Part shown: one piece after another, positions 1 to 14,875 of the stretch
Layout: every line of letters starts with the position of its first letter
Numbering within the stretch: position 1 is the stretch's first letter
Origin: an uncultured Gammaproteobacteria bacterium
Lineage (GTDB): Bacteria > Pseudomonadota > Gammaproteobacteria > CAMYKB01
DNA: 64,000 bases
Reading direction: 5' to 3'
Assembly: GCA_947258875.1 (NCBI GenBank)
Contig: CAMYKB010000005.1
Span: forward strand, 52,608 to 116,607
The notes under the pieces: generated by a model
Told to the model about the DNA's origin: nothing
Database searches by the model: none
What the model saw: the letters and a program-made list of their open reading frames with translations, nothing else
Made by a program: the position numbers and the translations under genes

Positions 1-221
1 CTGCTTTGAAACGCGTATAAGAGCGTATCCGGCACCATGCCTTTGTTCTGCTGACCTGCTCAATAGACAGAATAATATAATATACATAAATATCAATTAA
101 TTAAAACTGATATTTAACCTTGACTATTGCTTGTCTTGGGACTTGCCATGTTACATTATCGCAGCTGTGGACACTGCCTCACAGGTGTTTACCCACTGTT
201 CAGCTATGCTAAATTCAGCTT

Positions 222-668
222 ATGACATGGCATCCGCACATCACAGTAGCAGCGGTAACTGAGCGGGACGGCGAATTCCTACTGGTTGAAGAATGTGTAG
301 ATGGTTCTCTGGTCCTGAACCAACCGGCGGGGCATCTTGAGGACGGCGAAAATCTGCTCGATGCCGTCATCCGCGAAACACGCGAAGAAAGTGCCTGGCA
401 TTTTCTGCCAGAAGCCATCGTCGGGATCTATCGCTGGCGACACCCCTCGAACCACGAAACATTCATTCGCGCAACCTTCTGCGGCAGTGTATCAGAACAT
501 GATCCTCAACAGGTGCTTGACGACGGCATAGTACGGAGCGTCTGGCTGAAATACGCGGCGCTTACCAACCAGCCGCAGAACCTCCGCAGTCCCCTGGTGT
601 TACGCAGTATCGACGATTACCTGGCGGGGAAACGCTATTCATTATCGATTCTAAGCGATCTGCTTTGA
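222..668 (+). CDS. NUDIX hydrolase (NudJ-like phosphatase)
   Basis: ORF with NUDIX box-like GHLEDGENLLDAVIRETREES; precedes mnmA as is common in gammaproteobacteria. Confidence 0.85.
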   Translation: MTWHPHITVAAVTERDGEFLLVEECVDGSLVLNQPAGHLEDGENLLDAVIRETREESAWHFLPEAIVGIYRWRHPSNHETFIRATFCGSVSEHDPQQVLDDGIVRSVWLKYAALTNQPQNLRSPLVLRSIDDYLAGKRYSLSILSDLL

Positions 669-782
669 CTTATAAAAATACACACCGCAAAGACATGAAG
701 GACACATAAAGAATACTCGGCTTGTCAATTTCCCTATTTCTCTTTGGCAAATGACCAAGATACCTGATTCCCACAGTCCTTC

Positions 783-852
783 GTGGAAACCCATACCTGA
801 GTTAAGCGATACAATGGTATGCGTTTCCACGCAGGAGCAGGAGCGTGGGAAC
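783..852. repeat. REP-like palindromic intergenic repeat
   Basis: GTGGAAACCCATACC (783-797) and GGTATGCGTTTCCAC (816-830) are inverted repeats with 1 mismatch; followed by TTTCCACGC...GCGTGGGAAC (824-852). Confidence 0.6.
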
Positions 853-978
853 AGGAAAAACAAATCAGAGAACCCTGTCAGTATGCATGCTGCAACCATG
901 CGGAAATGACTATTTGCTGTAAAATGTAGCTGCTGAGATAATAGCCTCTACCAGCTAAATGATGTTCCCGTCTCTCTA

Positions 979-2076
979 ATGTCTAGCCCATCAAAACAAC
1001 ACATCGTCGTCGGTATTTCCGGAGGGGTCGACTCGTCGGTCGCGGCGCTGTTGCTCAAGCAACAAGGCCATAAAGTCGAAGGCCTGTTCATGAAGAACTG
1101 GGAAGAAGATGACAACGACGAGTATTGCGCGGCGGCAGCTGACCTGGAAGATGCCCGCGCTGTATGCGAGGCGTTGGGTATTCGTTTACACACCGTTAAT
1201 TTTTCCAGTGAATACTGGGACCGCGTATTCACCTATTTCCTGCAGGAATACCGCGCCGGGCGCACCCCTAACCCTGACGTGATGTGCAATAAGGAAATCA
1301 AATTCAAGGCATTCCTGGATCATGCCATGACACTGGGTGCAGACAGCATCGCGACCGGTCATTATGCGCGTGTTGCACGTGTCAAAAATAAGACTCAGCT
1401 TTTGAGGGGTATTGATCACAACAAGGATCAGACCTACTTTTTACATACTCTGGGACAACATCAGCTCAAGTATGCCCACTTCCCCGTCGGCGGCAGCAAC
1501 AAGGCAGAGGTCCGCAAGATTGCAGCACAGGCTGGTCTGGTCACCCATGATAAAAAGGACAGCACAGGAATATGTTTTATCGGCGAACGCCGCTTTCGCG
1601 ATTTCCTGGCACACTATCTGCCGGCACAACCCGGTGATATCGTTAGCCCTGAAGGCCATGTCATAGGCACACATCAAGGCCTGATGTACCACACTATAGG
1701 TCAACGACAGGGACTGGAGATTGGTGGTCTCAAAGACATGCCAGAAGCGGCCTGGTATGTGGTTGCCAAGGATATGTCGACCAACCGTTTAATCGCAGCA
1801 CAGGGGCATGACAACTCACTGTTGATGCACAGCGGGTTAATAGCGAACCAAATACACTGGATCAATGAAGAACCCCTGGACACATCCACTAGCTATACGG
1901 CAAAGATACGTTACCGGCAGGCCGATCAGGCGTGTACACTCACCTCACTCACACAAGACCGCTATCAGGTAAATTTTGCTGAGCCACAACGCGCCATTAC
2001 CCCGGGCCAGTCTGTGGTTGTGTATCACGGGGAAACCTGCCTCGGTGGCGGTGTAATCGATCAAATAGTGAAATAA
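979..2076 (+). CDS. mnmA: tRNA-specific 2-thiouridylase MnmA
   Basis: [19 protein letters not shown]-loop, [24 protein letters not shown] motifs. Confidence 0.97.
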
Positions 2077-2078
2077 CC

Positions 2079-2702
2079 ATGACAACTGCAACAGAAAACC
2101 AGGTCATTGCCCTGGCTGGCCTCTACCAATGCATTGAACAGGTGCAGCAACTCGCCTGGCAAGGCAAAATTATTGATTATCCAGCCTATGAAATCTGCCT
2201 GAAGAGTTTGCTCAAAACAGACGTTGACAGTTATGCCGATGTCTATGAGGGCAGCTACAACCTCATACCGGGCCTGCGCAGCCTGAAAGCGACGTATAAC
2301 AAGCAGGATGACAAGCAAAGCATGGATCGCATGCGTTATGCCGTTACCCTGCTCTACCTGGAAAAGAAACTCAGCAAGTTACCCGTGATGATGGAAAAAA
2401 TCGACCAAGGACTGATTGAAGTGCAAAACCAGTTACAACATTTCGAGCTCACGCACAGTAATGTCATCAATAAATTTGCAGACATCTACCTGGAGACCAT
2501 CAGTAAAATCGCTCCACGCATCATTGTGCATGGCGATGAGTCATTCCTGGTCAATCAGGACACTGCGAGCCGCATTCGTGCCCTGCTGTTGGCCGGTATC
2601 CGTGCCGCCTGGTTATGGCGTCAGGCGGGTGGCAGCCGCTGGCAGCTGTTTCTGGGTAAAAAGAAGATATTGGCAACAGTGGACAAGCTGCTACTGGCCT
2701 GA
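2079..2702 (+). CDS. hflD: High frequency lysogenization protein HflD
   Basis: ~207 aa, immediately downstream of mnmA; HflD-like sequence (QVIALAGLYQCIEQVQQLAWQG). Confidence 0.92.
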   Translation: MTTATENQVIALAGLYQCIEQVQQLAWQGKIIDYPAYEICLKSLLKTDVDSYADVYEGSYNLIPGLRSLKATYNKQDDKQSMDRMRYAVTLLYLEKKLSKLPVMMEKIDQGLIEVQNQLQHFELTHSNVINKFADIYLETISKIAPRIIVHGDESFLVNQDTASRIRALLLAGIRAAWLWRQAGGSRWQLFLGKKKILATVDKLLLA

Positions 2703-2804
2703 ATCTGGCAGAATCAGGTATAATCATTTATTAACTCAGCCTATGCTTTTTAATACTAAGCATTGGTTTTAGCTATTCTAGATACCCCGACCAGAGATAC
2801 CCGC

Positions 2805-5465
2805 ATGTCAGATACCTACAACACTAAAAGCAGTCTTGATGTAAACGGCAAACACTATGAAATGTTCAATTTATCAGGACTGGAACAAGCAAGGCGACTG
2901 CCGTTTTCATTGAAAATCCTGCTGGAAAATCTGCTGCGCCACGAGGATGGCAAAACCGTCACTGCCGATGATATCCAGGCCATGCTCGATTGGGACCCGC
3001 AAGCCGAACCAAAAACAGAAATTGCCTATAGACCGGCGCGCGTACTGATGCAGGATTTCACCGGTGTACCGGCGGTGGTCGATCTCGCAGCCATGCGTGA
3101 CGCCATGAAAGCGCTGGGTGGCAATCCAGACAAGATCAATCCACTGCAACCCGCTGAACTGGTCATCGATCACTCGGTGCAGGTCGACAGTTACGGCAGT
3201 GACAAGGCCTTCGATCTGAATGCTTCACTGGAATTCAGCCGTAACCGCGAGCGTTACAGTTTTCTCAAATGGGGACAAAACGCGTTTTCGAATTTCAAGG
3301 TCGTACCCCCGGATACCGGCATCGTGCATCAGGTCAACCTCGAATACCTGGCACGTGTGGTTTTTGCGCAGGATAAAGAAGGTGTGACACAGGCCTACCC
3401 TGATACAGTCGTCGGTACCGACTCACACACCACCATGATCAATGGTGTTGGGGTACTGGGCTGGGGCGTCGGTGGTATTGAAGCCGAAGCCTCCATGTTG
3501 GGACAGCCGATTTCCATGCTGATACCGAAAGTAGTGGGTTTCAAACTCACGGGTCAGTTACCTGAAGGTACAACCGCAACTGATCTTGTATTGATTATTG
3601 TTGAAATGCTGCGCAAACACGGTGTTGTGGGTAAATTTGTGGAATTTTACGGTGATGGCCTGGATCATATGCCGTTGGGCGACCGCGCCACGATTGCAAA
3701 TATGGCCCCCGAGTATGGTGCAACCTGTGGCATCTTCCCTATTGATGAGGAAACCTTGCGATACCTGCGCCTCACCAGCCGTGATGAGGCGCAGGTGGCG
3801 CTGGTGGAGGCCTATGCGCGTGCGCAAGGTATGTGGCGTGAGCCCGGTGACAATCGCGCCGAGTACAGTGAATACCTGGAACTTGATCTCGGCAGCGTTG
3901 AGGCCAGTCTCGCAGGGCCTAAGAGACCCCAGGACCGCGTGCCACTCAAGCATTCCAAAACAATATTCAGCGATGAATTGCAGCGCTTGAAGAAAGAACG
4001 CAATCTGCAAAGCAAAGGACCGGTAAAGGTCTCTGTTGATGGAGAGACGATGGAATTGAACGACGGCAGTGTCGTCATCGCCGCCATCACCTCCTGCACC
4101 AACACATCCAATCCGACCGTGATGGTCGCGGCCGGACTGGTAGCCAAGAAGGCGGCGGCACTGGGTCTTACTGTCAAACCCTGGGTCAAGACCTCACTGG
4201 CGCCGGGATCGCGTGTAGTGACCGATTACCTGACCAATGCCAAATTAATGGATGACCTCAATCAACTGGGTTTCAATGTCGTCGGTTATGGCTGCACCAC
4301 CTGTATCGGCAATTCCGGTCCGCTGCATCCGGAGATTTCAAAAGCCATAAATGAAAATGACCTTGCTGCGGTGTCAGTATTGTCGGGGAACCGTAATTTT
4401 GAAGGCCGCGTGCATGCTGATGTGCGCATGAATTACCTCGCCTCACCGCCGCTGGTGGTTGCTTACGCGATAGCCGGGCGTATGGATATCGACGTGTATA
4501 ACGAACCTTTGGCTAAAAACAGCCACGGCGTTGCTGTGTACCTTAAGGATATCTGGCCGACACAACAGGAAATTGCAGAAACCGTATCGGCTTGTTTAAA
4601 TGCCGAACAATTTTCGAAATCTTACCGCAACGTGTTTGCCGGTGAAGAAAACTGGAAAAATCTCGATGCCGGTGAAGGCAAGCTCTACAGCTGGGATGAT
4701 TCCACCTATGTGGCAAACCCACCCTATTTCGACGGTATGACCATGCAGGTCAGCGATGCCTCGGATATCAGCGGCGCGCGCGTACTGGCGCTGCTGGGTG
4801 ATTCAGTCACAACCGATCACATCTCACCTGCGGGCGCCATCAAGGCCGACAGCCCTGCCGGACAATACCTGCAGGAACGCGGCGTCAAACCGGCCGATTT
4901 TAATTCCTACGGCTCACGCCGCGGTAATCATGAAGTCATGATGCGCGGCACCTTCGCCAATATTCGCCTGCGCAACAAGTTGGCACCGGGCACCGAAGGC
5001 AGCATCACTATTCATCAACCTTCGGGCGAGCAGATGTCGATCTTCGATGCCGCCATGAAATACAAAGCCGAGAACGTGCCATCAATCGTCATTGCCGGCA
5101 AGGAATACGGCTCCGGTTCTTCACGTGACTGGGCCGCTAAGGGACCGCGCCTCCTGGGTGTTCAGGCTGCAATTGCCGAAAGCTACGAACGTATACATCG
5201 ATCCAATCTTGTCGGTATGGGTATCCTGCCGTTGGAATTCATGCCTGGCGAGCGTGCCGAGACACTTGGACTTAGTGGAGAAGAAAGCTATGCCATTCAA
5301 GGCATGCAGAATGGCGCTGCCAAAGAAGTCACTGTTGTAGCAACAGCTGCAGACGGATCGCAAAAAACCTTCAAGGCCAAAGTCCGTATCGACACACCCC
5401 AGGAAGTCGAGTACTACCAGAATGGCGGTATCCTGCACTATGTACTAAGACAACTCGCTGCGTAA
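2805..5465 (+). CDS. acnA: Aconitate hydratase AcnA
   Basis: [45 protein letters not shown] motifs; start placed at ATG 2805 ([10 protein letters not shown]). Confidence 0.96.
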
Positions 5466-10107: not shown

Positions 10108-10132
10108 AATTATCGATTCACCCGCTTATCAA

Positions 10133-10207
10133 CGTCTTGCATAAAGGGCGCGCGTATTTTGCGCGTCCCAGTGAGCGATAGCGAACGATTTGATGCAATT
10201 GTTAGGT
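10133..10207 (-). mobile_element. attC-like integron recombination site
   Basis: Minus strand: ACCTAAC(AA)TTGCATCAAATCG...GGGACGCGCAAAATACGCGCGCCC TTTATGCAAGACGTT; R'' matches RYYYAAC, L''/L' pair with a single extrahelical C, inner GGGaCGCGC/GCGCGCCC stem with extrahelical A. Confidence 0.7.
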
Positions 10208-10210
10208 TCA

Positions 10211-10726
10211 TTAACCATCTAGTGCTACCAACAACTTCTTACCTCGTGATCTCATTGCTGGAGTGCCTTCCTTTGTCAGTCGTTTCACTTGCTTTCGCAC
10301 CATGCCAACATAACTACTATCTTGTATTGCAATATCAGTCAACGCCTGCATTGCAAATGCTTTAACAATACTACTTTCATCCTTGAGATAACTCTGCATT
10401 AATTCATAAACCATTTCGCGTTCTTTTTTTGTCAAGTTAAGCCTTGGCAATATCTGTGCTGTGTGCCATCGAACCTCTTTCTGATTAATATTTGCTATTT
10501 TACTTAAAAACAGTTTTTTATATGGCTTTAACCATTCCGGGTGATCTCGCGTAATCTTCTCTACTGCATCCGATGATCTCATTCTAAGGCCAGGGTTTTC
10601 TATAAGTATCGCATTTACTACATCACCAAATAATTTTGGATTCGATAAAACCTGCTTCACTACTACTTCAGACTTACCAGCTGTCCGTAGATCTCCAATA
10701 CTTAATAGTTTTTCTATCCTATTCAT
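10211..10726 (-). CDS. HEAT-repeat-like protein of unknown function, probable integron cassette gene
   Basis: 171 aa, helical repeat-like sequence; stop codon 3 nt before the attC-like site. Confidence 0.65.
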   Translation of the reverse strand: MNRIEKLLSIGDLRTAGKSEVVVKQVLSNPKLFGDVVNAILIENPGLRMRSSDAVEKITRDHPEWLKPYKKLFLSKIANINQKEVRWHTAQILPRLNLTKKEREMVYELMQSYLKDESSIVKAFAMQALTDIAIQDSSYVGMVRKQVKRLTKEGTPAMRSRGKKLLVALDG

Positions 10727-10796
10727 ACGGCCAATGTATATTACGTTATGAACCTAACTGCTATTAGGTGACATTTCTATATCTATAAATAATTTA

Positions 10797-10840
10797 TACA
10801 TCTAGATATCTAATATCTACATCTAGAAACTAGATATCTA
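10797..10840. repeat. AT-rich palindromic/direct repeat cluster
   Basis: CTAGATATCTA at 10802-10812 and 10830-10840 (containing palindrome TAGATATCTA); TACATCTAGA at 10797-10806 and 10818-10827. Confidence 0.8.
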
Positions 10841-10964
10841 TCGCCTCATCCACAATACGCCATTCGTACCCAAACCCCAATAGCTCGTGAACATCGATCG
10901 CCATGCCTGGGTTTGCTGTCCAAGCGCCGTAGATTTGGCTGACCAACGCGGAATTATCAAGCAT
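10830..10964 (-). CDS. Small ORF (44 aa), unknown
   Basis: ATG...TAG: MLDNSALVSQIYGAWTANPGMAIDVHELLGFGYEWRIVDEAIDI; below the 60-aa cutoff of the track. Confidence 0.35.
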   Translation of the reverse strand: MLDNSALVSQIYGAWTANPGMAIDVHELLGFGYEWRIVDEAIDI

Positions 10965-11008
10965 AGCTGTTAGGATTCGTTACACTCACCCCAACCAACA
11001 GAAGGTTA

Positions 11009-13243: not shown

Positions 13244-14875
13244 TTAACTTGCCAGATTTGGCTGTAGCTTATGCGGCATGTATTTAATCCAGTGATTGAG
13301 GTCATCAATAGGCATAGGTTCGCCGATGTAGTAGCCCTGAGCCTTGTCGCAACCTAATTCGCGCAGCTGATGCAGCACATCCTCGTTCTCTACGCCCTCG
13401 GCAATGATAGTGCGATTCATATTGTGTGCAAGCTCGATCGTTGATCTGATAATCATATGGCTATTGGGATCGCGCATCATGTCGATAATAAAGGACTTAT
13501 CAATCTTGATTTCGTTGACAGGCAATCTTTTAAGATAATGTAAAGATGAATACCCTGTACCATAATCATCAATAGAGAAAAGTACACCAATATCGTGCAG
13601 ACGCCGCATGATGTTGATTGCCTTTTCAGGGTTCAGCATCACGGCGCTCTCGGTGATCTCCAGATGCAGGCTCCTGGGGGTAATTGCACGGCTGCGAAGG
13701 CTCGCCGCAACATAATCGAAAAGATTAATATCGTGCAGATTAATTGCGGATAGATTTGTTGAAATAGGAATTTGAATGCCTGCCGATTGCCATTCTGCCA
13801 ACTGGTCGAGTACTACGTCGAGCAACCAGCTGTAAAGCGCTTTGATCATGCCGCTCTCTTCAGCAAGTGGAATGAAATCGTCCGGCATCAAGTTACCCAA
13901 CCTGGGATGTGTCCAGCGGATAAGCGCTTCGACGCCACACAACGCACCCGTATCCAGTTGAATCTGTGGCTGATAATGTACAACCAGATGATCATCTTCA
14001 ATGGCCTGACGTAAATCACCCAAAATACTCAATTCTTCTGGTGACTTGGTGGCAAGCGCTGCTTCGTAAATCACGATGTCGTGAGTATTTTGCTTGGCTT
14101 CGTACATTGCGATTTCCGCATGTTTCATCAAAGCGTTCTCGGTATCACCGTGCTCAGGATAAAGTGCTGCTCCGATGCTAATGCCTATATCAGTAGGATA
14201 CCCAGACAGGGTGATAGGTTCATGCAGTACCGAGACGATATGGGTTGAGATTTTTCTTAGATCGTCAATATCCGTGACTGGTTGAATCAGGACACCAAAT
14301 TCATCACCGCCAAGTCGCGCCAGCATATCTGTCCGCCGCAGGTTCCGATGCAGGCGCATGCCAACTTCCTGCAACAACAAATCACCACAGTTATGCCCAA
14401 GGGTTTCATTGATATGCCTGAAGCGGTCAAGATCCATCATTAATACGGCAAACTTGATCGCTGGATCGGCTGTATTGGTCATCTCGGCCAGATGATTAAG
14501 GAAAAATGTCCGGTTTGGTAGGCGTGTCAGGTTGTCATGCAACGCGTGATGTTGTTGCATGGCGATGATGCGCTTGGTTTCCTGCAGTGAACCTAAGCTC
14601 ATGCGGCTGATAGTCAGTACGAAGAAACTGCCAATACAAAATATCGCCGATGCGATCACTTCCAAGGTGCTTACATCACGCTGTAGGATCAAGTAAGCAA
14701 ACGCAAGATAACCGGCGATAAACAGCCCTATAAGGACGGCAAGCAGCAACCAGGACCGGGAAAATTCCCTGTTTTCATGAATGATAATGCGCGCATACGA
14801 TAGCGAGATAACCAATACAGCAGCGCCGATAAAAATCAGCGCCATACTCATTTGTGTGGCAAGTGTGATATCCAT
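13244..14875 (-). CDS. Diguanylate cyclase/phosphodiesterase (GGDEF-EAL) membrane protein
   Basis: RLGGDEFGVLI, VEALIRWTHP, DDYGTGYSSLHYLKRLPV; N-terminal TM segments. Confidence 0.95.
   Translation of the reverse strand: MDITLATQMSMALIFIGAAVLVISLSYARIIIHENREFSRSWLLLAVLIGLFIAGYLAFAYLILQRDVSTLEVIASAIFCIGSFFVLTISRMSLGSLQETKRIIAMQQHHALHDNLTRLPNRTFFLNHLAEMTNTADPAIKFAVLMMDLDRFRHINETLGHNCGDLLLQEVGMRLHRNLRRTDMLARLGGDEFGVLIQPVTDIDDLRKISTHIVSVLHEPITLSGYPTDIGISIGAALYPEHGDTENALMKHAEIAMYEAKQNTHDIVIYEAALATKSPEELSILGDLRQAIEDDHLVVHYQPQIQLDTGALCGVEALIRWTHPRLGNLMPDDFIPLAEESGMIKALYSWLLDVVLDQLAEWQSAGIQIPISTNLSAINLHDINLFDYVAASLRSRAITPRSLHLEITESAVMLNPEKAINIMRRLHDIGVLFSIDDYGTGYSSLHYLKRLPVNEIKIDKSFIIDMMRDPNSHMIIRSTIELAHNMNRTIIAEGVENEDVLHQLRELGCDKAQGYYIGEPMPIDDLNHWIKYMPHKLQPNLAS

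Follow-up and report, generated by a model that had tools for sequence, protein, structure and literature searches.

How does a single integron-type gene cassette come to lie in a part of the genome that holds no integron? The question arises on one contig (C5) of a gammaproteobacterial draft genome (3.01 Mb, 67 contigs), which contains the window, the whole 64-kb stretch of DNA analysed here. On the minus strand of the window, 625 bp from 10757 to 10133 read as an integron-type cassette with a 3' attC site (Table 1). The unit is compact, with one 171-aa ORF per 625 bp in the attC orientation according to the ORF list; 31 nt separate the left end of the cassette from the ATG, and the stop codon stands 3 nt 5' of ACCTAAC. 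This heptamer is the reverse complement of the cassette's own leading GTTAGGT (10758-10752), and in the closed cassette the two pair at 7/7 positions as R'' and R'. L'' TTGCATCAAA (10198-10189) faces L' TTTATGCAA (10145-10137) with a single unpaired C at 10192, so that the L box takes the form TTGCAT(c)AAA against TTTATGCAA with one extrahelical base; the inner stem carries one bulge. The sequence G/TT, where the slash marks the crossover, is found at both junctions (10758/10757 and 10133/10132). The left crossover falls between G10758 and T10757, making TTAGG cassette-derived, while GTTGATA at the right junction is the chromosomal half of the target site. A preliminary description had already given these repeats, the ATG and ORF, the pairing of the two stems and the GACG/TT end, and every one of these positions is confirmed from the sequence.

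Table 1. Features of the lone cassette, in window coordinates; a slash marks a crossover point
Feature	Position	Strand	Basis
Whole cassette, TTAGGT to GACG	10133..10757	-	Sequence; exhaustive cassette scan recovers exactly these ends
Left junction, CCTAATAGCAG/TTAGG, attI-like core	10753..10768	-	Just two exact core matches in the genome
171-aa HEAT-like ORF, GC 37.6%	10211..10726	-	ORF list; weak HEAT/Cnd1 matches; all-helical model; GC
R'' core ACCTAAC, reverse complement of the leading GTTAGGT	10201..10207	-	Sequence; closed-site fold
L'', inner stem-loop and L' of attC, with extrahelical C 10192	10137..10198	-	Fold; register shared with collected attC sites
Right junction, G/TTG	10130..10133	-	Sequence

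The attC site is best judged in its closed form, which is 81 nt long. Folding of its bottom strand (-19.2 kcal/mol) gives an R box of 8 bp and an L box from which one G bulges out; the hairpin that remains in situ reaches a fold z-score of a mere -2.0. For comparison, 33 attC sites were gathered from integron arrays of other gammaproteobacteria. In 31 of them an extrahelical base falls at index 15, counted from where R'' begins, and the window site has the same register, a regularity that is partly built in because the collecting scan restricted the allowed positions. A model with home-made scoring was made from 18 of these 33 sites, all from genomes other than the host; covariation in it is strong (47 cells with both sides changed), and 0/500 shuffles are as high. 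The closed window site scores 31.7 bits, within the range of model members left out one at a time (26-66 bits); sites of the host itself score 51.5 (attC1 of contig C41), 26.2 (C41 attC2) and 28-38 bits (three sites on C36). Among about 104,000 triples of 5' GTT, R'' AAC and 3' GTT in the window, this cassette is the only candidate within 8 bits. None of 200 dinucleotide-shuffled windows attains 31.7 bits (best 23.4; Gumbel p about 0.001), nor does any of about 259,000 triples in control DNA. In situ, the score is only 4.6 bits and an Infernal covariance search gives nothing significant, a miss explained by the R' half sitting at the opposite end of the cassette. A scan of the window against Rfam gave no match at gathering thresholds, and a strict in-situ scan for R''...R' returned just one site, at 13895, which looks like chance. 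Sequence, closed-site fold and exhaustive cassette scan thus uphold the earlier reading of a lone cassette and both of its ends: this is a real integron cassette outside an integron.

The 171-aa protein is predicted to be all-helical (single-sequence model, mean pLDDT 73), and its likeness to HEAT/Cnd1 in Pfam is weak and below cut-off. Searches of Pfam, NCBIfam, PADLOC and PDB sequences gave nothing above cut-off, and a plasmid search gave no match; as a default guess, the protein may be a protein-binding scaffold. Homologues with 26-51% identity are present in 8 of 368 other gammaproteobacterial genomes. At the six such loci inspected there are no attC or cassette-type ends, which fits an ordinary gene having been captured into a cassette. 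GC content is 37.6% in the ORF and 50.3% across the window; two of the three C41 cassettes are AT-rich too. The start of a GFA gene lies 26 bp past the cassette. That gene was considered as a second cassette and rejected: the preliminary description had seen no attC after it, and the exhaustive scan of the window agrees that there is no candidate on its 3' side.

Does the host possess the machinery to move such a unit? No intI match or remnant is present on contig C5, and the cassette accordingly lies outside any intI-attI platform. The earlier statement that no IntI gene is visible holds for the window only; the same genome has an intact intI and attC arrays elsewhere, as the genome-wide search suggested at the time has now revealed. 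Contig C41 bears a complete integron with an intact intI, whose product matches TIGR02249 at 508.7 bits, an attI and at least three attC sites, in an array that runs off the contig end. Over 65 bp, its attC2 and the window attC share 79% identity (E = 2e-7). The attC model picks out further sites on C7 and at the beginning of both C36 and C27. The C36 locus (L169, C36:1-8000) is a cassette-array end at 64-3885, with ORFs that by eye resemble LysE, GFA and aminoglycoside N3-acetyltransferase genes. Four loci, C38:31024-31701, C17:35429-35998, C11:413-1021 and C53:4460-4786, hold integron-type integrases that are partial or broken and share 39-50% identity with C41 IntI. The integrase DNA of C38, C17 and C11 is 67-73% mutually identical, and these three have in common an upstream region with an attC-like end; the four loci look like older, decayed integrons. 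The cassette is off-platform, yet its host genome has an integron.

The left edge of the cassette resembles the attI of that integron. The host attI reads CCCCTAATAGTAG/TTAGGC and the edge reads TCACCTAATAGCAG/TTAGGT. Their 13-base core, CCTAATAGNAGTT, has exactly two exact matches in 3.01 Mb, the C41 attI and the cassette edge, and with one mismatch it occurs at two more places. The chromosomal part of the likeness is only an 11-mer, because the TT past the crossover is now cassette-derived; 10 of its 11 bases are identical to the host attI, for which simple counting gives a chance of about 8e-6 per given GTT. Past the core, identity to the C41 attI collapses to 13/20 and 20/50, the likeness ending at about 16 bp. 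A secondary site, as proposed in the preliminary description, is right in that the cassette is off-platform, but the site is more than an arbitrary GTT: on its left it has the genome's sole other exact copy of the host attI core. This core also forms an inverted repeat, ACCTAA-N6-TTAGGT, and there is a slight chance that it is what an earlier attC left behind after an internal deletion. Immediately left of the cassette, window positions 10766-10840 are AT-rich with repeated TAGATATCTA palindromes, and 10837-10968 on the minus strand hold a 44-aa ORF, flanked by the cassette and the S9 peptidase gene and without a Pfam match.

In the most likely account, the starting unit was a circular cassette supplied by the host's integrons, and an integron integrase, C41 IntI or a close predecessor, inserted it at a chromosomal site whose left half mimics the attI core. 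The bottom strand of the cassette's attC would fold, as both the folding and the model score support, and IntI would recognise the extrahelical bases; strand exchange would then take place between the G and TT of a double-stranded attI-like target, CCTAATAGCAG/TT, a position suggested by the two G/TT junctions together with the established integron mechanism. Replication would resolve the recombination product, leaving the arrangement G[TTAGGT - ORF - R''-L''-L' - GACG]TTGATAA. A promoter scan found no sigma-70-like promoter on the cassette strand; the HEAT-like gene would be transcribed from a promoter on its left, perhaps jointly with the GFA gene. A likeness limited to the core (10/11, 13/20, 20/50) is what would be expected of a site chosen by an enzyme. 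Several points are counted against insertion: no relative was found that keeps this neighbourhood and could show an empty site (0 of the 42 related loci reached through the S9 peptidase neighbour have GFA or YaiI neighbours), a second off-platform cluster of this genome, on C7, has a left edge unlike attI, the genome is a draft, and no second copy of the HEAT-like gene was found in the host arrays.

Could the locus instead be what is left of a second integron, its intI deleted and only a partial attI and one cassette remaining? The attI core at the cassette's left edge and the several decayed intI copies in the host genome are in keeping with such a relic, as are near-full attI copies that head cassettes without intI in other genomes. 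There is also a published parallel, the CALIN of Shewanella prophage M16-3, which is headed by its own attI (PMC9892861) and resembles the present locus in having an attI sequence and cassette(s) without intI; however, it has a full attI, whereas here only the core is alike. The contig is without any intI trace, the match to the host attI does not extend past the core, and a gap of only about 240 bp separates the cassette from an intact S9 peptidase gene. With a likeness that ends at about 16 bp and no remnant of intI nearby, insertion by IntI is favoured and a relic appears unlikely; on the sequence comparison, recognition of a short core by IntI fits better than descent from a second attI.

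Far less probable still is that a short piece of attI was carried along with the cassette in one aberrant recombination, through a cut in the attI L box. The shared stretch on the chromosomal side is 11 bp, and 11-bp delta-attI-11 pieces have been published for class 1 cassettes (PMC12901181), but the published cases have the piece at the opposite end of the cassette, and here it differs from the host attI at 1 of 11 bases beside an attC that is complete. That there is no cassette at all, and that an ordinary gene simply has an inverted repeat next to it by chance, draws on the homologues without cassette ends and the modest in-situ hairpin but is barely credible given the shuffled and control DNA, the sequence kinship with a real host attC (C41 attC2) and an attI core placed exactly at the other end.

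Off-target insertion by an integron integrase is already known from attG and secondary sites, and integron off-target sites have been described (PMC10127599); the special point here is the closeness of the target to the host's own attI. According to PMC12444791 and PMC12901181, which cite Loot et al. 2024, integron cassettes are reported at attG or secondary genomic sites. As in the cases given there, the present cassette lies outside an array, has G/TT junctions and presumably arose by IntI recombination. The attG sites are said to diverge from both attI and attC, whereas here the target has the host attI core at 10/11 chromosomal bases. A single-attC CALIN (PMC9024848) is similar in having an attC without a nearby intI. 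The default threshold of IntegronFinder 2.0 for a CALIN is, however, two attC sites without intI (PMC9024848), and the window has one cassette candidate, with one attC whose R' is out of place. The C41 integron shares the attI core and a related attC with the lone cassette but differs in having intI and an array and in lacking the HEAT-like gene.

How general might such a choice of target be? A two-cassette cluster on C7, flanked by ordinary genes, is another off-platform cluster in the same genome. It lies at about 1770-2540 of locus L171 (C7:49000-53000) on the minus strand, without intI, and consists of two ORFs, of 93 and 87 aa, with an attC-like site after each; it stands between genes for an M28-type peptidase and a sortase-like protein. 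Its left edge, AACAAG/TTATAAGG, is unlike attI, and therefore attI likeness is no rule even within this genome. Other genomes were covered by a small, partly hand-picked survey whose core pattern was derived from other attI sites. Beyond the primary attI, the genomes surveyed contain eight further exact copies of this pattern. Four of the eight are followed by attC sites scoring 26-62, above 318 random AGTT controls (maximum 22.8), which come from other genomes and mostly from GC-rich loci; in two cases the best attC lies at a distance of 2-3 kb. Among sites with one mismatch, three of five picked by eye also exceed the controls, but most in a less selected sample do not. No integron-integrase match was found beside the surveyed attI-like sites. 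Some are near-full attI copies, with 46-47/50 upstream bases identical in G082 and G262 and 38/50 in G131, and others are core-only (G082 1336736, G310 1260670). The attI-like loci far from intI, mostly with cassettes, are L202-L205, L208, L210, L212 and L213, in genomes G082, G262, G337, G131, G164 and G310.

On this sequence evidence, some other gammaproteobacteria appear to have attI-like sites without intI that are followed by cassettes, a lead and not a result. A broader reading is offered tentatively, with the balance still tilted against it: in hosts of chromosomal integrons, off-platform cassettes may often enter at sequences resembling the host attI and not at random GTT, the entry sites being either short look-alikes, as in this window, or near-full attI copies without intI. 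The locus bears on the origin of lone cassettes and integrase-less clusters, for which loss of intI and off-target insertion are the competing accounts. A cassette placed at the sole second copy of the attI core allows a direct test of whether targets are chosen for their likeness to attI, and the first look at other genomes points toward such a choice too. If the broader reading is true, attI-like sites would form a second set of entry points for cassettes, served in trans by a single integrase.
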